This document shows positions 1-18,959 of a DNA stretch of 64,000 nt, piece by piece. The stretch lies in assembly GCF_000016525.1 (NCBI RefSeq), contig NC_009515.1:1080501-1144500 (forward strand). The letters are read 5' to 3'. Position numbers and translations under genes: made by a program. A model generated the notes under the pieces. That model made no database searches, was not told where the DNA came from, and saw nothing but the letters and a program-made list of their open reading frames with translations. The DNA comes from Methanobrevibacter smithii ATCC 35061 (GTDB taxonomy: Archaea; Methanobacteriota; Methanobacteria; Methanobacteriales; Methanobacteriaceae). Positions within the stretch are counted from its first letter, which is position 1. Each line of letters opens with the position of its first letter.

Positions 1-1487
1 ACATACCAATCATAATCAGTTAATCCTGTACCGACAATAAGTCTTAATCTTTGAGAATTAATTACAGCATAAACAATTGAACTTTCATTATTGTTTCTTA
101 AATAATTAGAAAATGTACCATTAACTAAAGTTCCACTACTATAATCAAATTTACCATTTTGAGACTCGAATTTAACACTCATTTGAGGAAGTAAAGAAGG
201 ATTATCCAAATATTTCATGGAATCCCCATCAGTATATTTATTTAAAGTTGCCCTAAACTCCGCATTAGTACCTACTTTAATCGGAGACTCATCACATTCA
301 AAAGTCATTACAACCCAATATTTAGTGTCTGATTTAACATACTTAAGAGAAGGTCCTTTATTTACCCCCCACCAATTATAATTTGCTGAAACATTATTTG
401 CATAAGCACCATTACCATAAATTTCGCCTAATACCACAGAATAAGTTATATTAAGATTAGAATTAGCAATATTAATACTGCTATCAAAATATGATGATTT
501 AATAGTTGCATCAGAATTAAATAGAGAAGACAAACCTGAATAACCGGAAGTTCTAAAGTACACATCACTTATATTAACTACAGAGTTTTCTGCTCTAAAA
601 CCCGCATCAGCAGTTGTATTTTTAACTACCAATGTACCATTATTACATGCTAATTGCCCTACTTTTGAGTTAATAACAGTCATGGTAATGCTTTTAAAAA
701 TATCAACATCAAAATTAGGGTTTGAAGAAATTCCAAAAGTTTGAGAATTATTCACAAATAAATTATGAAAATTATAAATTGCAGGATTCTTATTTGAATA
801 GCTTATAATCAATTTACTATTAACAACACTACAGTCTCCCAAATTAAAAATCATATCCGCATAATTAGAACCAACACAATTAGAAAATTTAGAATCATAA
901 ACTTTTAAGTCGCCTTCATTGTAAATAACTCCCATAAAAGAATTAATATTCTTAAATTCCACATTTGACAATGTTAAAAATCCTTTATTGTAAATAACAC
1001 CATAATAACTAGAATATTCAGTTGTTTTTCCATTGACAAAGTTAATATTTTCCAAAATTAATGATTTGGACTCGAAAATATTAAAAAATGTACTTTGTCC
1101 ATTACCATTAACTGTTACATTGCCCGTTAATGATTTAATTACCAAATTTTTATTTATTTCAATGTTTAAATCACCTGGACTGCTATAAATTCCATCCATA
1201 AGAATAACAGTAGAATTATCACTAGCCATATTAACTGCTTCACCAATTGAAGAATATGGTTTATCCTGACTACCATCAGGTACTATAGATAAATTTGCAG
1301 AAGGATTTACATAAACATTGTTATCCCCATTATCTCCAATAATAGAGTCTGTATCATAGTTATTTTCAACAATTACATTATCATCAACATTAGTACTGTT
1401 AAAATCATCACTAGCACTAGCTAAACTTATTGAAGACAATATAATCAAAAATAACATGAATATAAATGCATTCTTTTTAACAAAAAT
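1..1487 (-). CDS. Adhesin-like surface protein, N-terminal part (truncated by window edge)
   Basis: An open frame on the minus strand runs off the left edge, so only about 495 N-terminal residues are present. It begins with a signal peptide (KKNAFIFMLFLIILSSISLASAS), then an Asn/Asp-rich stretch and a module reading PDGSQDKPYSSIGEAV with Asn/Ser-rich strands typical of right-handed beta-helix adhesin-like proteins (ALPs) of Methanobrevibacter. A NWWGVNKGP motif near residue 375 is common in such proteins. The same module occurs in the second half of the neighbouring ALP (1610-7264). The start is uncertain. A GAGGTG ribosome site lies at 1494-1499. Downstream in-frame codons before the charged KK pair are TTA ATT ATT TTT GTT, so ATT (1485-1487) is my choice. 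A GTG at 1494-1496 is in frame but would sit inside the ribosome site. The role is cell-surface; the ligand is unknown. Confidence 0.8.
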   Translation of the reverse strand, partial: MFVKKNAFIFMLFLIILSSISLASASDDFNSTNVDDNVIVENNYDTDSIIGDNGDNNVYVNPSANLSIVPDGSQDKPYSSIGEAVNMASDNSTVILMDGIYSSPGDLNIEINKNLVIKSLTGNVTVNGNGQSTFFNIFESKSLILENINFVNGKTTEYSSYYGVIYNKGFLTLSNVEFKNINSFMGVIYNEGDLKVYDSKFSNCVGSNYADMIFNLGDCSVVNSKLIISYSNKNPAIYNFHNLFVNNSQTFGISSNPNFDVDIFKSITMTVINSKVGQLACNNGTLVVKNTTADAGFRAENSVVNISDVYFRTSGYSGLSSLFNSDATIKSSYFDSSINIANSNLNITYSVVLGEIYGNGAYANNVSANYNWWGVNKGPSLKYVKSDTKYWVVMTFECDESPIKVGTNAEFRATLNKYTDGDSMKYLDNPSLLPQMSVKFESQNGKFDYSSGTLVNGTFSNYLRNNNESSIVYAVINSQRLRLIVGTGLTDYDWY

Positions 1488-1609: not shown

Positions 1610-4600
1610 TTATTCATTTTCCCTATCTTTTCTGCGTTTATAACCTATAAACAGACAGATTATAAGAATAATGATTAAACCAATAAATGTAAATATTGTG
1701 TTTGGATTGTCTAATTGCTTAGTTACATCCTCTTCATCAATCTCATATGCTTTAACATCATCACTGCTGGAACTGGATGAACTAGACTCTCCAGCATCAG
1801 ATGAACTAGATCCGCCAGCACTAGCTGAAGAAGCTGCATTTGCAGTCAAACCTACAGTAAGTAAGTTTTCATTAGCATTACCACCATCTATTTGGCTTAA
1901 ACTATTAGCATTAGAACTGCCATTAACTCCCTGATTTGAAGTAGGATTTCCACCTTGAGCAGGTCCACCATTAGGACCATATTGGCCACCACCGCCAGGA
2001 CCTAAATTACTTCCAGGACCAGGAATTCCACCACCAGGACCGGAAGGACCAGGACCGGTATTTCCACCAGGTTTACCTTGGCCTCCAATTTGAGGACCAG
2101 TATGCCAAATAGGATTTGTCTTAGTAATCACTGTAGGGCCGGAAGCAGGCTTATCATTACCTCCCGGAGTAACAGTTCCATTTCCATTTGGCTTGTCTGG
2201 TACTACAGTAGGAGCCCAATTAATAATTGACCTGACTAATGGCTTAAATACAATTTTATCACCTAAATTAAAAGGAGAATCATCTGGGACTCCTTTTTTA
2301 CCATTAGATTCCCAGTAATTATACCTTGCATCAACATATAAATGTGAACTGTCATATACACTGAAACTTTCAGCTTTAGGTGCTTTGTTATTTACAATAT
2401 TAGAATTATGTATAACCATATTAGCAGATCCTAAATAAAATGCCCCACCTGATTCCAAACCAAGATTATTAGAGATAGTTGAATTAAAGATATTCAAATT
2501 ATTCTGAGTGTGGCCATAGTAAACATATGAACCGTAACTGATAGCTCCACCATAACTTGCAGAATTATTGCTTATAATTGTATTAGTAATTAGGAAGTTA
2601 TTAGATATGTCTAAAGCACCGCCTTTACTTCCTGCACGATTATCAGTAATTATACAACCATCAATACGTCCATCATTTGCCTGAACAGATAATGCTCCAC
2701 CATTAACTACTGCCTTATTATAACGGACAATAGAATCTTTAAGAGTGAATTTATCAAATGTTCCATAAATTGCTCCACCATCACCATAATTCCTATAAAC
2801 ATAAGAATTCAAGTTAGAATTATTACCTTCAATAGTGGAATTAGCCACATTATTTGTAAAAGAACAATTAGTTAAGTTCAATGAAGCTTTTGGTTTATAT
2901 GTTGAATATTCACCATAATTTGAAATAGTTCCAATAGCTCCTCCTTTATAAGCATTATTATGATCAAATATTGAATTAGCAACTTCTAAAACAGTATTTT
3001 TGTTAAATATTGCTCCACCAGTACCTAAAGGAACTTCACATACTGATCTGTGTTCATAACGAACACCTTCATCAATAGACCATCCGGTAGAATACCTTTC
3101 AAGCATACAATGATCCAAATTAAGAACTGCAACATTCATGTAAAATACAGTATTATTAATTGTAAAAGATTTAGATGAATCTGTGTAAATAGCCCCACCA
3201 TGAACACCTTTATTATCACGAATTACTGATGAAAGAATAGTAGTTTTACCAAAGTCCGCTATAGCTCCACCTCTATGAGCATAATTTCCAGATAATTCAG
3301 TTAAATTAATAACTAAATTACCGTAATTTAATATAGCTCCACCTAATCCAGTATTTTTACAGTCAACAGTATACCAGTACTCCTTGCCTCTGTCATCTAC
3401 AGTTTTATTTATGAAATCAGGATTACTATTATCAAAATAAGCAGAAGAGTTGCAAATTATTGAATTATTAATGTATAAAGTACCATTATTAACAAATAAT
3501 GAACCTCCATTAACATTATGTCCATTAGATACAATTAATCCATTTATTGTTAAAGTACCATTAGTTAAAATAGTAAATAACTGACTATTATTTGCATCAA
3601 TAAATACTTTACCCGGATTAATAGCTAAAATAGTAATATTTTTATCAATAACAAGATTAGAATCATTAAATGTTCCATCAAGCAAGTAAATTACACAATG
3701 ATTTAAAGATTTACCTAAAGCAAAAGCCAGAGAAGCATAAGGACGCTCTTTACTACCATCACCTGCAGTATCACTACCGCCAATTGCAACATAAAGTGCA
3801 AATGGAGTATTATCTATAACCAAATCATGCAATGCATAAACAGCTGCATTTGCACGTTTAGATCCATTACCACTAATAAGATAATTGTTTATAACTTTAT
3901 TAAACAAATTCTCATTAGTTATAATCATAACTGCATAATCATCTCCTTTCAATGAATAAGAAAATATGTTATTATGAGCTACAGTATTACTTACTGATTT
4001 GCCAGTAAAGAAGACAGCTGATTGATTAGTAACGCTTGAATTTCCAGTAATGATTATATCATTGTATTTTATTGAATCATATGCAGAATTATAAGCATAA
4101 TATCCAAATATGGAAAAGCCACTAATAGTTAAATTATTATGATTAAAGTTAGTATATCCAGAATCAACAGAATAAACAACCTTATCAGCTATTCCTGACA
4201 TATTATTATAAGCAATTTCATTATCTTTAGAATTTTTAATAATTACAACATTTTCAAGATTGCTGAAAGTCATATTATTAGAAATTATATGATTTGAAGA
4301 AGTATCAAGTAATTTAATCATTACATTACTTTTTCCACCAGATAAACTATTATTAATTACATAATTACCCATACCGCCAACAACAATTACACTAGAGTTT
4401 GTTAAATTATTATTTTTAATATAAACTTTAGAAACATTGTTTAATGTTAATGTAGAGTTAATTAAAGTTAAATTAGTAATATTAACTGATGAAGCACCAC
4501 TATTAAGAATCAGGTTAACAATTGAACTTACATTTTCTTTATAATATGTGATATTAACTGGAATATCAATACTTAAAGTTTGACCTTTAGTTAAATTATT

Positions 4601-7264
4601 AAGTAGCAACACATCATTGTTTTTAATAATTTTAGAGTTTATAGTATCATTAAAGTATATTCCGCAATTATTATCATCAATAACATAATAAGTAACACCT
4701 AACTCAACAATAGAAGTATTATTCTCAACAAATATTGGATTTGTTACATTAGCATAAATTAAATTACCAGTAATATTTGTATTATTTGTAAATTTAATTA
4801 ATCCAATAGCCCCTTGTCCAATACCTAATATATCATGAATTTCAGTAATTTTAGATAAATTACCACCAAAGATATTGAAAGTGTTGTTTATAATAGAAAT
4901 GTTGTCTGACATATATGTGCCAATACCATAAACACCGTTAGAATTACCATAAAGATAATTATTCACAAAAGTGACATTATAATTTTTATGCAACTCGATG
5001 AGATATGCCATATCCTTAGAATGAATAACAATATTATTATTAGAAATATTCAAATCATGGGGACTGCCAATAACATTACAGCTTGCTATACCGTAAGCTG
5101 CACCATCAGAAATAATGTTAATATTATTTCCCATAATTTCACTTTCAGTTAAAACATCAGCATAAATAGCTTCAGTTACACCAGTACCAATCATGATAAT
5201 AGTATTTCCGGAAATTCTAAATCCTGAAGACATTACTTTATTATAAGTTAATCTTATAGGATTATAAGCAGGCATACTAATACCATAAGCATAAGCAGCT
5301 TTTGAATTAATATAAATATTATTATTTTTTAGAATTATGCCATTGCATACATCAACAACTGAAATAGCTGAATTAGCAGGACTTTTATCCTTCAACATTA
5401 ATGTAATATTATTGTTAGATAACGAAACATCATCTACACCATTTAAGACTATAGCTTCTTTATTCATATTATAGAAATTAAAATCACGAATTAATGATCC
5501 GCTAGCATCTCCACTTAATGAAATAGTAACATTAAATAAAAGATTGCTTTGTTTATTACTAATAATATTGATTTTTTCTGTTATGAATACATCCTTGTTA
5601 GATAAGAATGTAAAGAAGATTACTTTAGTCTTATTTGCTTCAAAAGTATAATTCAAATAACCTCTTTCATCAAAGTATTTGTAGAAATTGTCATCATTAA
5701 TAACTAAAGCTGTTGCATCATAAATAACCCCATTAATCATGTTGTCAGAGTTATTGTCTGCAAGTTCATCAGTAATCTCTTTGTAGATACCAACACTAGC
5801 ATTAGTTTCAATTACATTACCTGATATGGTAGTTTTATAGATTAAACCTTTAATAGAAATACCATAACTTTCACTGCGAATAACATTGTTTAAAATATTA
5901 TTATAATAATATCTCATGACATTTGATGTGGAAGTTACAGATATACCTACAGCATGAGTATCAACCATATTATTTGAAATAGTATTGTTACATCCAATAA
6001 ATGTAATAGCATTATCATGATTAACTTTAATTTTATTATCATGAACATAAGAACAATTATCAGTGATACTAATACCTACACCATAATTCTTAATATTAAC
6101 AGTATTGTTAAAAGCTTCAGTATAATTACTTAAACCGATAGCACAATAAATATCTGTAAATGTTACATTATTATGTGCAACAATAGCAGAATATCCTTTT
6201 TCACCATTAACTAAAATACCATTACCCTGACTAGTTCCAGTTACGTTATTATAGGTAACAGATATATTCTTACCCATTGCAGAAACTGAAATACTGCTTT
6301 CTATAATAGTATTATTATATACTGTAGCATTATCTGAATATAAGCTAATACCATAACTGCCACGAATAATAGTATTATTAGCAATAGTTGTGTTGATATG
6401 GTTTTCATAAACCAACTGTAACACAATAGACATTGCTCCATTACAAAATGCTTTAAGGTAATTATCTGAAATAACGTTACCTAAACATAACGGTGATCCA
6501 CCATAATCTGCATGTCCAAAGGGATTAAAGTAAATCAGATTACTAACTATCAAATCATTATAATCCAGAGTTTCCAATTTATTTTTAGAAATTATATTAT
6601 AATGACATTGACCCATAACCATTACACAGGTAATGTAAGTACTCATATCATTACCAATAATTCTATTATAGCTAGACCATCCCATAGGCATTGCATAAAC
6701 ACCTGCAGCATTAGCTATTCTAATTGTATTGTTAACAATTGTATTATTGTTAGATTTAGTTATCCAAATACCATGTAACTGACCTACATATATTCCATTA
6801 ATAGATAATGCACCTTTAGTATTGTTAATTGTAAGTCCTGAAACTGTAGATCCATCACTACCTTTAACTAAATGAATAAATCCATTTGAAATTTTAGAAG
6901 TATTATCTAAAGGCATTAAAGTTAACTGACGATCAATAACAAAACCTCTATCAGATATATTGCCTATTTTTAAAGTATCTCCAGCTACAATTCCTGATTC
7001 ATTTTTGATTTGACCATTGAATTTGTAGAAATAATTATCATAATTATTTTGAGTAATTTCAATAGTTTTGCCGCCAATAATTGGGCTTAAAACAATATCC
7101 TGATTACCAATATCCAAATTATTAGATTCATGGTTAATAATTACGTTGTCATTCTGTTCCAAAACAATTGTAGAATTATCAGTATCATCTATTGCACTAA
7201 CTGCACTTAATGATAAAATAAAACAACAAATCATTACCAAAATCAACATACCCTGTTTTTTAAT
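1610..7264 (-). CDS. Giant adhesin-like protein, beta-helix, C-terminal membrane anchor
   Basis: About 1884 residues. The order is: signal peptide (IKKQGMLILVMICCFILSLSAVSA); a long Asn-rich region of NosD/PbH1-type right-handed beta-helix repeats to about residue 1150; a second module starting YVAIGGSDTAGDGSKERPY with GGAI/GGAL-type polymorphic beta-helix repeats to about 1660; a Pro/Gly-rich linker; a Ser/Ala-rich stretch; then one transmembrane helix (TIFTFIGLIIILIICLFIGY) and a KRRKDRENE tail. This is a secreted, membrane-anchored surface protein crossing the pseudomurein wall. The first ATG is at 7249, but it is 20 nt from the GGAGGTG site (7270-7276) and would remove the positive N-region. 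No ATG, GTG or TTG lies between it and the upstream in-frame stop. ATT at 7262-7264 gives 5-nt spacing and a normal signal peptide, so I place the start there. The IS element lies 185 bp upstream. The function as adhesin is inferred from family. Confidence 0.87.
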   Translation of the reverse strand: MKKQGMLILVMICCFILSLSAVSAIDDTDNSTIVLEQNDNVIINHESNNLDIGNQDIVLSPIIGGKTIEITQNNYDNYFYKFNGQIKNESGIVAGDTLKIGNISDRGFVIDRQLTLMPLDNTSKISNGFIHLVKGSDGSTVSGLTINNTKGALSINGIYVGQLHGIWITKSNNNTIVNNTIRIANAAGVYAMPMGWSSYNRIIGNDMSTYITCVMVMGQCHYNIISKNKLETLDYNDLIVSNLIYFNPFGHADYGGSPLCLGNVISDNYLKAFCNGAMSIVLQLVYENHINTTIANNTIIRGSYGISLYSDNATVYNNTIIESSISVSAMGKNISVTYNNVTGTSQGNGILVNGEKGYSAIVAHNNVTFTDIYCAIGLSNYTEAFNNTVNIKNYGVGISITDNCSYVHDNKIKVNHDNAITFIGCNNTISNNMVDTHAVGISVTSTSNVMRYYYNNILNNVIRSESYGISIKGLIYKTTISGNVIETNASVGIYKEITDELADNNSDNMINGVIYDATALVINDDNFYKYFDERGYLNYTFEANKTKVIFFTFLSNKDVFITEKINIISNKQSNLLFNVTISLSGDASGSLIRDFNFYNMNKEAIVLNGVDDVSLSNNNITLMLKDKSPANSAISVVDVCNGIILKNNNIYINSKAAYAYGISMPAYNPIRLTYNKVMSSGFRISGNTIIMIGTGVTEAIYADVLTESEIMGNNINIISDGAAYGIASCNVIGSPHDLNISNNNIVIHSKDMAYLIELHKNYNVTFVNNYLYGNSNGVYGIGTYMSDNISIINNTFNIFGGNLSKITEIHDILGIGQGAIGLIKFTNNTNITGNLIYANVTNPIFVENNTSIVELGVTYYVIDDNNCGIYFNDTINSKIIKNNDVLLLNNLTKGQTLSIDIPVNITYYKENVSSIVNLILNSGASSVNITNLTLINSTLTLNNVSKVYIKNNNLTNSSVIVVGGMGNYVINNSLSGGKSNVMIKLLDTSSNHIISNNMTFSNLENVVIIKNSKDNEIAYNNMSGIADKVVYSVDSGYTNFNHNNLTISGFSIFGYYAYNSAYDSIKYNDIIITGNSSVTNQSAVFFTGKSVSNTVAHNNIFSYSLKGDDYAVMIITNENLFNKVINNYLISGNGSKRANAAVYALHDLVIDNTPFALYVAIGGSDTAGDGSKERPYASLAFALGKSLNHCVIYLLDGTFNDSNLVIDKNITILAINPGKVFIDANNSQLFTILTNGTLTINGLIVSNGHNVNGGSLFVNNGTLYINNSIICNSSAYFDNSNPDFINKTVDDRGKEYWYTVDCKNTGLGGAILNYGNLVINLTELSGNYAHRGGAIADFGKTTILSSVIRDNKGVHGGAIYTDSSKSFTINNTVFYMNVAVLNLDHCMLERYSTGWSIDEGVRYEHRSVCEVPLGTGGAIFNKNTVLEVANSIFDHNNAYKGGAIGTISNYGEYSTYKPKASLNLTNCSFTNNVANSTIEGNNSNLNSYVYRNYGDGGAIYGTFDKFTLKDSIVRYNKAVVNGGALSVQANDGRIDGCIITDNRAGSKGGALDISNNFLITNTIISNNSASYGGAISYGSYVYYGHTQNNLNIFNSTISNNLGLESGGAFYLGSANMVIHNSNIVNNKAPKAESFSVYDSSHLYVDARYNYWESNGKKGVPDDSPFNLGDKIVFKPLVRSIINWAPTVVPDKPNGNGTVTPGGNDKPASGPTVITKTNPIWHTGPQIGGQGKPGGNTGPGPSGPGGGIPGPGSNLGPGGGGQYGPNGGPAQGGNPTSNQGVNGSSNANSLSQIDGGNANENLLTVGLTANAASSASAGGSSSSDAGESSSSSSSSDDVKAYEIDEEDVTKQLDNPNTIFTFIGLIIILIICLFIGYKRRKDRENE

Positions 7265-13498: not shown

Positions 13499-16400
13499 TT
13501 AATAATCATCTTCATCGTTTTCGTGTTTGTTTCTAGCATACCCGACGACAAATATTGCAATCAAACAGATTACTGCAATAATAAGTACAACAGGAGTACT
13601 TGATTGACCAGCTGCAGATTTAGATGCAGAACTTTTAGAAATTTCATGAGCAGTAGCTCCAGATTGACCTTTAGATGAATCTGATTGTGAAGAAGCATCT
13701 TTAGATTGAGGTGATGCAATTTTTGCATCAGCCGGATCAACAGAAGTATCTAATCCCGCCGCAGTTGCCCCACCAGCTTCACCACTGCCACTTTGATCAT
13801 TATTAGTAGTTCCATTTACCAAGACTTGGTCATTATTATTATCATCAGTATCTGAAGTATCTCCATTTGAATCATCAGGATTAGAACTATCAGAGCTACT
13901 GTCATCTTTGTAAAGAGGATCAGTTAATGTAGCTTGAGCCAATATTTGAGAATACTTAGCTTTATCAGCAGAAGATAATGAACTAGACTGTATAAGTTTC
14001 ATGTTGAAATCCAAATTCTTACATGTGTGGTGACAACAAGCAACACCATACTGAATAGCCATTTGAATCATATTATCTGCTAATTTAGTCACCATGTCTG
14101 GACTAGCATCCCATTTACCTTGATAATTTAAATACATCATCCATGCAGCCATAGATTGCCAAGCAGCTGCTTGAGCAACATTACCTACACCACTTGCAAG
14201 ACCCAAATAAGTATTAGCTATTTCATTACCTAATTGAGTGTTTAAATTCTTATTAGCTACAATCAAACCACCATATAAATTTTGCATTTGAGCAGCATAG
14301 GATAATGAACCTGCACGTGTACTGAATAATGCATTATAATATAATGGATTTAATATTTTACTACGAATTTCAAATTCAAGCTCTTCATCGTAAGTTCTAC
14401 TAATATAGTCATTTTTATTCCTTATATCTACAAATGCAGTGTCAGGTTTAGCACCTAACTGTTTAGCTGCATTGTATAAACCACCAAACCAATCATAGTA
14501 ATCATCAGAATCGAAGAATCTCCAAGTACTATCAAAGTTTTGAGTAATCAAATCAACTTTACCAAGCAAGTATTCATAGTTTTTCCTTTCGTTGTTAATT
14601 ACGATATTACCATGTTCATCAAGAGTCCAGGAATAAGATACTCTGCTAAGATAAATATCCGCTAAATCCGAATTAATTGTAGTGATATTCCAGTTTGCAG
14701 TATTTGGTATAAGAGAATTCATACCAGTACCTTCCAAAACAGCACCAGGAAGACCAAATAACCTATCAGTCATCGGATTTTCAGCATAATGCTTTTTCAG
14801 GAAGTTGTTTGAAACATCATCATCAGTGGAATTTAAAGCTAAACTAACAGCTGTTAACATTAATTTAATCCAATTAGTATTACTTGTAACCATACTTGCA
14901 AATACATCAACTCTAGGTCTGTTTACCACTGAACCATTACTTAATTTTACAGTTAAATTATTAATTGGAATTAACTCAACACCAGTAATGTCTCCAGATC
15001 TGGACCATGTCGGTTTACAGCCGAGGAAATACATAAATTCTGCAACACCAATACCTTCAGTCCTTAATATTTCAGTACCCCACAATATTAAAGCAGTAAG
15101 TTCAGGCCAGCTTCCATGTTCTTCATAATAATTTGCAAGAAGCAAATCTACAACATTTACTGCAGACTCATAAGCTGCTTTAGAAGGCATTTTTGAAGCA
15201 TCAGAACTGTGACCAATATGTCCGGTAGGTATTGAATCACTATAAGCAGGATCTGCAAACAAACCTGCAGTAGTATAACTACCAGATAATGCTGCTAACA
15301 ATGCATTCCATTCATTATTGTTTTGTATTTGAGAAATTACTTTTGAAGCAAATACTAATGATTCATATAAGCCAGAAGATTTGTTATAAACTTTAAACTC
15401 ATCCATTTCAGCTAATTTATCAACACTAGCTGTACCATTTACAAGATTTTCAACAAATGACCTGAACCAGTTAATTACAACTAATTTTTGACCTTCATAC
15501 TGACGGTCACCTTTAATATCATCATAGTAATCCTTATTTTTTAATTCTGGATAAATATGATGCAATATTTGAGTATATACATCAGTTCTTGAAGTTGTTA
15601 TTGTAATAACTTCTTCAACAAGTTCAGTTCCATTTAAAACTTTACCAAGAGTATGTAAACCGAAAGTATTGAAATCTTCTGCCATACTATCCAAGTAATT
15701 ATGTAATCCTTCAAGCCAATCATCAAATTTTTGACCATCAGCAGGTTTGTCAAAACCTAAAGTAGGAGCTAATTCTAAAATTAACTTTTTATAAGCCTCT
15801 GCATTAGCTGAAACATTATTTTTTACTTGTTCATTATAGTGGTCGATGTAATTGGATAATGTAGTATAATTACCATATAACTCTGAAATTACCATTGCAG
15901 GAGTCATATGAGTGATCATCATAGAACCTATCCTATCTCTAGCTACCATAGCTTCCCCAGGGTTTGATACAATATATGGATATATAGTAGGAGTTAATGT
16001 TAACTCAAATGTCCAGTCACCTTCATGAACACCAATATTTCTACCAGGTAACCACTCTACAGTACCGTGAGTACCTAAATTAATAATTGCATCACAACCA
16101 ATAGTCTTATCTAACCATTTATAAAAGGTAACATATTGCTGATGAGGCGGCAATGTCAAATCGTGATAATTTTGAATCTCCTCCCAACCTCTACTTGGTT
16201 GGAAAGTGATGAATACCTTACCAAACCACATTCCTGGAATTACAATATATGTCTTATTATATACCATTATTTCTCCAAGACCTGCACCCCAACGGTCAAC
16301 CATTTGCTTATACAATGTTTGATTCATATCTTTAGTCAAGTTATAAAACTCATCTAATGTAATCAACTGATGATGTTCCATTAACTGATTCCAATATTTT

Positions 16401-18325
16401 TCAACATACTGATTTAACAAACCTTGAGCCCAGGTACCTTTGTTACCCATTTCAATTATTAAATCAGACAAATCATCAACAGACGGAATGTCGGACTTAT
16501 CCATTCCAATATCATATCCCGCATCAGCTAAATGCTCAAGTATATCATGAGCACTTTGGAAAACATCTAAATAAGATGCACCAATTTCTGCTTTACCCGG
16601 CGGATAATTGTACAAAACAACTGACACAACTTTGGAAGAATTATCCATATCTTTTAAATCTGCCCATCCAGTAGTCATTTTGACCATTTTTTCTATACCT
16701 GACTGCACAACATGTACTTTACCCATATTATCTTTATATGATAAAATAACAGGACCAAAGACTCCTTCAAAGCTAGGAATAGAAACTGAAAATGTCCACT
16801 CCATTTGAGCACCAAGCTCACTGTCAAAACTGGTTTGAGAAATATCCACCAAACCTTTAACAACAGTTAAATTAATTTTAACCAAATCATCTTCAGCAGA
16901 TCCTTTACCATAATCTAGAGACCAGCTGTATAATGAAGCTATAGCTGATATACCAATTTGAGAAGTTTGAGTAAGAGTTAATAAAATTGAAGACATTGAT
17001 GGAGTAATACCTGTTTTAAATATATTAAAAGCAGATCTACCATTTGCTTCATAAGTTCTAATCAAAGCATCCACAACACTTCCACCACAGTAGTAAGAAG
17101 CAATAGCTATGAATTTGGTTTCAGGATTTTTCATATTCATATATTTGTTTTCAAATTGTCTGAACAATTCTGCAGGATTCAATTCAGTTTTCATCCACTG
17201 CTCATATTCTCCAGTCATCCAATTTAAACTTCCCTTTTTATCATCATTATATCCAGGATGTGATAGAATCCACTGATTAATTTCACTGGCTTTTGGAACT
17301 ACAGAAAACATTCCAAAATCCGGATGGTAAATACCGCATTCAGGACTTAATTGGGGAGCCCCACCTTCCTGAAGTGTAGGATTTGTGTATTTTTGAGGAT
17401 TAATTAAATAATAAACATATTTCAAGTAATTTTCCATGTTTGATTTTAAAACATCAGAATTATTAATATCCTGAGCCTGGAAATAAGAACCTATATATGT
17501 ATTTTCAACAGTATTGTAAGAATTATCTGCTGCACTTGCTCCTACAAAATGAATACCTATATTCTTAATTATTTCATCATTATAAACACCAAAAGTATAA
17601 GCAACATTATATTTTGCATTAGCTGGTGAAGAGCTTAACAAATTCTTTAACACCTGAGAAGTAAAAAGACTATATGAACCTTCAGCAAACATATCAACAT
17701 GCACGAAGTTAGCATACTCTAATAACCATTCTCTAGTCTTGTCATAGTCAGTTGTACTTATATATGCAACCCTTTTAGATAAACTCATTAAATAGTCTAC
17801 TTTTTCTGAGTGTGATTCATAAGATACTAAAAGCATAATATCTGGAACAAACATGTAATTAACTAAAACAGAAGAATGACTTCCAAGATTTACATTTTCT
17901 GTGTGAGTCTCATAAGTAGAATAGCTAAGTTGAACTTTATAATTGCCAGCAGCTAAATTACCAATTGAATAAGCACCCCCAGCACCAGTTTTACCAGCAA
18001 ATACTAGATTATTTGATGAATCCAAAACTGTAATATTAACACCTGCCAAATCCACTCCGTCTTCAACCCAGGTTTTTGTAGTTGGATTATAAGAATCCTT
18101 AGTATGAATATCAATACTACTGTCTCCAGCATTAGCAGAAATTACATCAGTATAATAAATATTGCTAACTTCATCTACACTAACACCTATAACATCCCCT
18201 AGAACATCATTACTAACTATTGTTTCGTTGTTAGAAACATCCTGCGCAGATACTATGCCCATTGTCATAATAAACATTAATAATAGACAAAAAATAATAA
18301 ATGCACTTTTATTTAACCTTTTAAT
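13499..18325 (-). CDS. Surface-anchored CobN/Mg-chelatase H subunit-like protein
   Basis: About 1608 residues. The signal peptide IKRLNKSAFIIFCLLLMFIM...IVSA is followed by a Cna-B/carboxypeptidase-regulatory-like domain (GKTGAGGAYSIGNLAAGNYKV). A full CobN/BchH-like region follows: MLLVSYESHSEKVDYL, DAIINLGTHGTVEWLPGR with GVHEGDW, GEAMVARDRIGSMMITHMTP, and TALILWGTEILRTEGIGVAEF with SRSGDITG. A Ser/Asp-rich linker and one transmembrane helix (VVLIIAVICLIAIFVVGY) end the protein. CobN subunits bind tetrapyrrole and insert metal with ATPase partners (CobS/CobT or ChlI/ChlD) in the cytoplasm. This one is predicted outside the cell, where no ATP is expected, so its reaction is unclear; metal or corrinoid capture is a guess. 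No partner subunit is in the window. The start is ATT (18323-18325). The first ATG (18277) would leave too short a signal peptide, and no ATG/GTG/TTG lies in frame upstream before a TAA. Confidence 0.85.
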   Translation of the reverse strand: MKRLNKSAFIIFCLLLMFIMTMGIVSAQDVSNNETIVSNDVLGDVIGVSVDEVSNIYYTDVISANAGDSSIDIHTKDSYNPTTKTWVEDGVDLAGVNITVLDSSNNLVFAGKTGAGGAYSIGNLAAGNYKVQLSYSTYETHTENVNLGSHSSVLVNYMFVPDIMLLVSYESHSEKVDYLMSLSKRVAYISTTDYDKTREWLLEYANFVHVDMFAEGSYSLFTSQVLKNLLSSSPANAKYNVAYTFGVYNDEIIKNIGIHFVGASAADNSYNTVENTYIGSYFQAQDINNSDVLKSNMENYLKYVYYLINPQKYTNPTLQEGGAPQLSPECGIYHPDFGMFSVVPKASEINQWILSHPGYNDDKKGSLNWMTGEYEQWMKTELNPAELFRQFENKYMNMKNPETKFIAIASYYCGGSVVDALIRTYEANGRSAFNIFKTGITPSMSSILLTLTQTSQIGISAIASLYSWSLDYGKGSAEDDLVKINLTVVKGLVDISQTSFDSELGAQMEWTFSVSIPSFEGVFGPVILSYKDNMGKVHVVQSGIEKMVKMTTGWADLKDMDNSSKVVSVVLYNYPPGKAEIGASYLDVFQSAHDILEHLADAGYDIGMDKSDIPSVDDLSDLIIEMGNKGTWAQGLLNQYVEKYWNQLMEHHQLITLDEFYNLTKDMNQTLYKQMVDRWGAGLGEIMVYNKTYIVIPGMWFGKVFITFQPSRGWEEIQNYHDLTLPPHQQYVTFYKWLDKTIGCDAIINLGTHGTVEWLPGRNIGVHEGDWTFELTLTPTIYPYIVSNPGEAMVARDRIGSMMITHMTPAMVISELYGNYTTLSNYIDHYNEQVKNNVSANAEAYKKLILELAPTLGFDKPADGQKFDDWLEGLHNYLDSMAEDFNTFGLHTLGKVLNGTELVEEVITITTSRTDVYTQILHHIYPELKNKDYYDDIKGDRQYEGQKLVVINWFRSFVENLVNGTASVDKLAEMDEFKVYNKSSGLYESLVFASKVISQIQNNNEWNALLAALSGSYTTAGLFADPAYSDSIPTGHIGHSSDASKMPSKAAYESAVNVVDLLLANYYEEHGSWPELTALILWGTEILRTEGIGVAEFMYFLGCKPTWSRSGDITGVELIPINNLTVKLSNGSVVNRPRVDVFASMVTSNTNWIKLMLTAVSLALNSTDDDVSNNFLKKHYAENPMTDRLFGLPGAVLEGTGMNSLIPNTANWNITTINSDLADIYLSRVSYSWTLDEHGNIVINNERKNYEYLLGKVDLITQNFDSTWRFFDSDDYYDWFGGLYNAAKQLGAKPDTAFVDIRNKNDYISRTYDEELEFEIRSKILNPLYYNALFSTRAGSLSYAAQMQNLYGGLIVANKNLNTQLGNEIANTYLGLASGVGNVAQAAAWQSMAAWMMYLNYQGKWDASPDMVTKLADNMIQMAIQYGVACCHHTCKNLDFNMKLIQSSSLSSADKAKYSQILAQATLTDPLYKDDSSSDSSNPDDSNGDTSDTDDNNNDQVLVNGTTNNDQSGSGEAGGATAAGLDTSVDPADAKIASPQSKDASSQSDSSKGQSGATAHEISKSSASKSAAGQSSTPVVLIIAVICLIAIFVVGYARNKHENDEDDY

Positions 18326-18337
18326 CTTTTCACCCCC
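18323..18337 (-). promoter_or_regulatory. Ribosome binding site and presumptive ATT start codon
   Basis: GGGGGTG (18337-18331), five bases, then ATT AAA AGG TTA AAT AAA. An in-frame TAA lies eight codons upstream of the ATT. The 24 codons between that TAA and the first ATG (18277) include no ATG, GTG or TTG. The encoded IKRLNK supplies the basic N-region that the signal peptide needs. Confidence 0.7.
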
Positions 18338-18587
18338 TGTTCCAATTAATTATTTTAAAAGTATAGCAATATTATTATAAATTACTATAATTGTAAATAA
18401 TACTTTACAATATATAAAACTTGCTAAAGTTTTGAATAACTAAAAAACAATAAAATGAAAATTAATTTATAAATTATCTTAAAGATTATTAAAAAATGTT
18501 AATAATTCATACATAAAATAAAAAATAGCTAAAAAAAGATTAAATCAAATTTCATCCAAATAAAAAAAACTAAAAATAAATATTAAT

Positions 18588-18870
18588 GGCATGTTAAGAG
18601 TAACCCACCTTCTGTTTAACAGCATTCATCTTAGCGAACTACTTTTGCCTCTTACAGTAGTCATCAGCATTTTTTGTTCTTGCATCCTATGGAATGGCCG
18701 TTTCACCGATTCTTTCAATGTCCTCAATTAAATATCATAGTCAACCATTAAAAGACGTGTCGTTTCTGCTCCAGAGTCATACCTCTCAGTATACGTTTTT
18801 CAACGCCATAGTCTGTAACGATGGGCGGAGTTTCCTTAGTTAAAAAACCAACAGCTGTCTTTAACTTGCC
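18588..18870 (-). ncRNA. rnpB: RNase P RNA (archaeal type A)
   Basis: Read on the minus strand the sequence has the RNase P signatures. CR-I is GGAAACTCCGCCCATCG near the 5' side. GAGCAGAAACGACACG and GGTGAAACGGCC are of CR-II/III type. The 3' part contains ACAGAAGGTGGGTTAC, matching the CR-V ACAGAANNNGG rule. The ends GGCAAGTTAA and TTAACATGCC pair to form P1, which sets the limits. This RNA is the catalytic core of RNase P, which trims tRNA 5' leaders. It lies just downstream of the initiator tRNA gene, on the same strand. Confidence 0.9.
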
Positions 18871-18884
18871 ATATTTATAAAAAG

Positions 18885-18959
<75 letters not shown>

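Follow-up and report, generated by a model that had tools for sequence, protein, structure and literature searches.

The gene for a CobN-like surface protein of Methanobrevibacter smithii very probably initiates at an AUU codon, on which initiator Met-tRNA would be accepted as on a near-cognate of AUG, with an extended Shine-Dalgarno (SD) sequence making this possible and the weak start presumably being kept as a brake on expression. The gene lies on the minus strand of the 64,000-nucleotide stretch analysed here (the window: M. smithii ATCC 35061, NC_009515.1, positions 1,080,501 to 1,144,500), whose numbering is used below unless stated otherwise. An ATT start had been proposed in the initial annotation of this stretch; the observation of the start region is confirmed, and its interpretation as an ATT start is supported by the comparison of sequences.

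The start region and the gene product

Read on the minus strand, the in-frame stop TAA (18350-18352) is followed by TTA ATT GGA ACA GGG GGT GAA AAG and then by ATT (18325-18323), after which the frame continues AAA AGG TTA AAT AAA AGT GCA TTT ATT ATT TTT TGT CTA TTA TTA up to its first ATG (18277-18275). No ATG, GTG or TTG stands in frame between this stop and this ATG, and the motif GGGGGTG (18337-18331, also given as AGGGGGTG) ends five bases 5' of the ATT, a spacing that is modal for the distance from AGGTG to ATG in the genome (63 genes at gap 5, 40 at gap 6). The second codon of the open frame is also ATT; standing 5' of the SD, it is not a start candidate. With this arrangement the gene shows one feature of membership in the class of non-canonical-start genes with an extended SD (infC/pcnB/ccpN type), namely a near-cognate codon at SD spacing without any canonical start to use. 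Translation from the ATT gives a normal signal peptide, whereas the leader read from the ATG at 18277 is MFIMTMGIVSA, i.e., 11 residues without a basic N-region. On all these points—lack of a canonical codon, position of GGGGGTG, and the contrast between a normal signal peptide and one of about ten residues—the initial annotation was borne out.

Table 1. Features of the CobN-like gene and further ATT-start candidates. Positions are those of the window except where the genome is named; names of candidates other than the CobN-like gene were read from the sequences, not from searches.
Feature	Position	Strand	Basis or remark
Coding region, 1608 codons + stop: signal peptide, carboxypeptidase-regulatory-like domain, CobN/Mg-chelatase domain, C-terminal membrane anchor	13499..18325	-	Pfam and translation
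Putative ATT start codon, CobN-like surface protein gene	18323..18325	-	Sole near-cognate at modal SD gap of 5 nt; homologous codon in orthologs ACG/ATC/ATT/ATA/CTG
Extended Shine-Dalgarno AGGGGGTGA	18330..18338	-	Duplex with assumed archaeal 16S tail about -15.0 kcal/mol
Signal peptide IKRLNKSAFIIFCLLLMFIMTMGIVSA, read from ATT	18245..18325	-	Sequence read; orthologs keep K/R in positions 2-9
First canonical codon ATG, codon 17 from ATT	18275..18277	-	Judged non-start: within hydrophobic core, 53 nt from SD core, start not conserved in orthologs
In-frame stop TAA upstream	18350..18352	-	Sequence
Second ATT start in window: 1884-codon surface protein IKKQGMLILVMICCFILSLSAVSA	7262..7264 (CDS 1610-7264)	-	SD GGGAGGTGA at gap 5; genome scan
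Probable third ATT start in window: surface protein IFVKKNAFIFMLFLIILSSISLASA	1485..1487	-	SD GAGGTG at gap 6; gene extends past left edge; genome scan
ATT-start candidate surface genes	Genome 842453; 748988		Genome scan
ATT-start candidate membrane protein	Genome 764587		Genome scan
ATT-start candidate TiaS	Genome G000:C1:430243-431496	-	Genome scan
ATT-start candidate hydrogenase maturation protease	Genome 346178		Genome scan
ATT-start candidate DegT-type aminotransferase	Genome G000:C1:1570587-1571726	+	ATT at gap 6; first ATG/GTG/TTG 75 codons in

The open reading frame that contains the gene (13499-18349, minus strand) encodes a full-length CobN-Mg_chel domain (PF02514, E=3.4e-181, residues 295-1411), whose 605 bits against a gathering score of 24.5 place the protein in this superfamily, together with a carboxypeptidase-regulatory-like domain (PF13620, E=6e-9, residues 89-150) and a C-terminal hydrophobic segment, the anchor, read from the translation. 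The full-length domain is shared with the CobN / magnesium chelatase H family, from which the protein differs in being apparently surface-exposed, with a signal peptide and a membrane anchor. The cut-offs of the cobaltochelatase CobN equivalogs are missed (452.6 bits vs 1619 for NF004645, 376 vs 822 for TIGR02257) by so wide a margin that a chelatase function is not established, and the name is therefore limited to CobN-like surface protein. A CobN paralog elsewhere in the genome (G000 1761082-1764648) has an ATG start.

Directly upstream on the same strand lies the RNase P RNA (18589-18869, Rfam E=1e-65), and beyond it a tRNA-Met(CAU) (18884-18959) with the initiator-like traits A1-U72 and GGG/CCC in the anticodon stem; the latter is not consistently adjacent to the CobN-like gene in other species, and no functional link is therefore claimed. 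A possible operator is the inverted repeat TTGTAAAGTATTATTTACAA, which lies close to a TATA-like box 5' of the start (about 18380-18420, minus strand); upstream of the gene the CobN-like orthologs share a conserved block that ends in TTGCTATG.

Start codons and Shine-Dalgarno strength across orthologs

Orthologs were taken from a public genome collection and from relatives, and their 5' ends were read, as the initial annotation had advised. Almost all have GGAGGTGAAAAT, then the same distance, then ATC, ATT, ATA or ACG, then a K/R-rich n-region. Among 54 distinct 5' ends of Methanobrevibacter type, the codon at the position fixed by the SD is ACG in 33, ATC in 11, ATT in 4, ATA in 2, and CTG, ACA, ATG and TTG in one each; three of the 54 (L027, L036, L060) are ambiguous because their third codon is ATG. 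On a tree of 53 proteins eight changes of start codon are required, and the sole ATG of the genus is nested within an ACG clade and therefore represents a derived reversal. Outside the genus, ATT or ATC is found in Methanothermobacter-like genomes (L075, L076, L238-L241), ATC in L242 and ATT in genus g20 (L246, L247); ATG predominates in Methanosphaera-like genomes (GTG in one) and is the codon of Methanothermus-like and a few further genomes, with weaker SDs in nearly all; these lineage labels are our presumption. A sequencing error hiding an ATG, GTG or TTG, or a decaying gene, could be entertained only as long as a single gene was in view: the near-identical species G011 shares the ATT unchanged, near-cognates are present in dozens of further genomes, and all 1608 codons are intact. 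Conservation of the start codon thus excludes error, with most other alternatives, and what chance we leave to it is negligible.

The ATG at 18277 is the first canonical codon of the frame, and TTG, GTG or ATG occurs 7-8 codons downstream of the SD-fixed codon in about half of the orthologs, so that initiation at such a codon, with the segment upstream of it an untranslated leader, has to be weighed. A start at 18277, however, would cut the hydrophobic core and lose the basic n-region, would have no SD at working distance and would leave a near-maximal SD idle. In several other species the hydrophobic core has already begun where the first canonical codon is reached, at +15 or +16 (L018, L023, L025, L039), and in L044 that codon, at +28, lies past the signal peptide; L023, L026, L051 and L143 have their upstream stop just five codons off, without a canonical codon between. 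Codons 2-7, which are read only when initiation takes place at the near-cognate codon, are under amino-acid constraint, with a dN/dS of 0.43-0.49 in the larger pair sets, compared to 0.40-0.50 for codons 8-16 and 0.39-0.42 for codons 17-28, i.e., by this measure they evolve as coding sequence, like the signal peptide downstream. A downstream start is therefore very improbable as a general explanation, although internal initiation in each single species cannot be excluded because of the orthologs with a canonical codon 7-8 in and of the three with ATG at codon 3.

Initiation at the AUU is further favoured by the strength of the SD, for which a standard archaeal 16S tail had to be assumed because the genome sequence used, in which 15,000 bases are N, yielded no rRNA genes. 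On this assumption the median duplex energy is -15.9 kcal/mol for orthologs with a near-cognate codon (n=62) and -6.6 for those with ATG (n=17), without overlap (p=2e-11); three ATG orthologs that retain a strong SD (L019, L243, L244) are listed apart and left out of the set of 17. Only one of 1,490 ATG genes of the genome has an SD as strong as that of the CobN-like gene, which thereby also has the extended, unusually strong SD expected of a member. A 5' structure acting as a lock was considered separately and rejected (median MFE -3.1 kcal/mol, vs -4.9 for ATG genes).

Probable near-cognate starts in other genes

The 1.85-Mb genome of the window was scanned for strong SDs at gap 5-6 before ORFs of 100 codons or more that have an in-frame stop a short distance upstream: the codon that follows is canonical in 55 cases, near-cognate in 8 (7 ATT, 1 ATA) and of another kind in 3, whereas in a control with the codon position shifted near-cognates are only 4 of 28 non-canonical codons. 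Near-cognates behind strong SDs thus exceed chance in this genome. About nine ORFs, the CobN-like gene included, have an ATT behind a strong SD and no usable canonical start (Table 1); in the surface protein gene at 7264, for instance, the first canonical codon lies five codons in and its use would lose the KK n-region. Genes with a signal peptide are not significantly enriched in near-cognate starts (Fisher p=0.09).

Such starts are also kept in related species. TiaS, which we take to be tRNA-Ile2 agmatidine synthetase (L308-L337, L340-L349, named from sequence), has ATT in all 30 loci of the genus, and in other genera ATA or ATT in nine genomes and ATG in Methanobacterium-like and Methanothermobacter-like genomes and in genus g23. 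A gene for a beta-helix-like surface protein, located about 9 kb downstream of the start of the CobN-like gene (L016, L018, L020, L035, L039, L040, L043 and others), has ATT in 18 of the 18 orthologous loci recovered, often with a TGA three codons before it that overlaps the SD. A survey of 568 kb in and around 41 orthologous loci gave 32 non-canonical codons preceded by a strong SD, every one of them ACG, ATT, ATC or ATA; most belong to the CobN-like gene itself and eight to the neighbouring beta-helix-like gene. In contrast, the hydrogenase maturation protease has ATT in just three genomes, among them that of the window and G011, and ATG, TTG or GTG elsewhere. Retention of a non-canonical start in relatives, a further feature of membership, is met by the CobN-like, TiaS and beta-helix genes. 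The statement of the initial annotation that AUU starts are rare in archaea consequently needs qualifying, since in this clade they recur, conserved, in several gene families.

Two side observations concern these families. The product of TiaS enables AUA decoding, which makes the weak Ile codon at its own start intriguing. The gene for TFB (G000:C1:406270-407262, minus strand; L278-L307) seems to start with ACG in 28 of 30 genus loci, but an upstream ORF that is read in a different frame covers this ACG with its 3' end (ending in KSKKSRKRRMRPRHKK and a stop, apparently Gar1); its conservation is thus confounded and was not used.

Both the CobN-like gene and TiaS bear on the possibility that ribosomes initiate at a GTG within the SD itself (GGGGGTG) or further upstream, and then shift frame or read on in frame. 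Every SD of GGTG type contains such a GTG, and in seven orthologs (L012, L029, L030, L061, L062, L159, L213) it is in frame. In most, however, including the window gene, it is out of frame and meets stops at unrelated positions, no slippery site is common to the orthologs, ACG is kept at the SD-fixed position even where the GTG is in frame, and TiaS in six species has a TAA between the GTG and the ATT, immediately 5' of the latter. This alternative appears more remote still than a start at a downstream canonical codon.

Proposed initiation at a weak codon and its possible meaning

The codon, its SD and their spacing, the absence of a canonical alternative, the conservation of near-cognates and evolution of the translated type up to the first canonical codon can be read from the sequences; actual use of the AUU, insertion of Met and selection for low initiation via a weak start are inferred, there being no translation data. 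The extended SD helix would position the 30S subunit so that initiator Met-tRNA comes to stand on the near-cognate codon with one mismatch, and this tether would be strong enough for its acceptance there. The protein would then begin Met-Lys-Arg-Leu, and output would be low, perhaps tuned by aIF1. The same device may operate in other genes of the clade, i.e., TiaS and several secreted surface proteins. The rate of initiation is likewise inferred to depend on the factors of start-codon selection, aIF1, aIF1A and aIF2. As aIF1 selects against codons other than AUG in archaeal systems (PMC8211752, PMC6237735), the aIF1 sensitivity of the window gene is plausible from published biochemistry, without data on this gene.

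Start codons of this kind are known in bacteria. In Escherichia coli, infC (IF3) and pcnB have AUU starts, and the weak codon limits initiation (PMC4245954; Binns and Masters 2002, cited in PMC13009471); the codon is that of the window gene, but the archaeal orthologs also use ACG and AUC. Moreover, infC is autoregulated by its own product, whereas the product of the window gene is no initiation factor; autoregulation of the infC type is rejected, as the product belongs to PF02514 and the aIF1 gene of the genome starts with ATG. A non-canonical start together with an extended SD, as found here, is present in Staphylococcus aureus infC (AUA), ccpN (AUA) and cvfC1 (AUU), where conserved AUU/AUA starts gave about 10% of AUG reporter output and output can respond to growth medium; in ccpN and cvfC1, start and SD are both conserved between species, and about 10% of AUG output was obtained in poor medium (PMC13009471). 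In contrast with the few genes of this bacterium, the archaeal set spans several gene families including large secreted proteins, its codon identity shifts among near-cognates, and ATG is nearly absent. No archaeal report of such starts was found in a literature search confined to open-licence papers.

An initiating AUU need not imply regulation. Under neutral tolerance, a very strong SD would make the start codon nearly irrelevant and near-cognates would have drifted in without a regulatory role: all one-mismatch near-cognates seem permitted (ACG, ATC, ATT, ATA, CTG), weak codon and SD strength co-occur, and the start of the hydrogenase maturation protease switches among ATG, TTG, GTG and ATT between species. 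ATG, one step away from each near-cognate, should however recur often in this case, and it is seen in only one of the 54 CobN-like 5' ends and in none of the 30 genus TiaS loci. AUG to AUU switches otherwise amount to about 1 in 61,000 genome-wide in prokaryote genome triplets (PMC5622118), and weak starts in S. aureus lose about 90% of reporter output despite an extended SD (PMC13009471). We consider neutral drift unlikely, if far from dismissed; the preference for selection of low expression over weak codons tolerated behind a strong SD is an inference, based on ATG being all but absent.

The retention of a weak codon downstream of a near-maximal SD in several gene families, one of which shows it across several families of the order, is an argument that weak initiation as such may be under selection. 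More speculatively, and with considerable doubt on our part, Methanobrevibacter and its relatives could possess a 'weak-start regulon' of surface proteins and TiaS on AUU/AUC/AUA/ACG behind near-maximal SDs, whose synthesis would follow changes in aIF1, Mg2+, polyamines or temperature together, through the fidelity of initiation. Annotation tools normally accept just ATG, GTG and TTG, and genes with near-cognate starts may therefore lose signal peptides or N-termini in databases. Conserved archaeal near-cognate starts would be natural substrates for in vivo tests of aIF1, aIF1A and aIF2 in start-codon selection and allow comparison with bacteria (IF3) and eukaryotes (eIF1). Overall, the conservation of these starts suggests that translation of particular genes is kept low on purpose in these related archaea.
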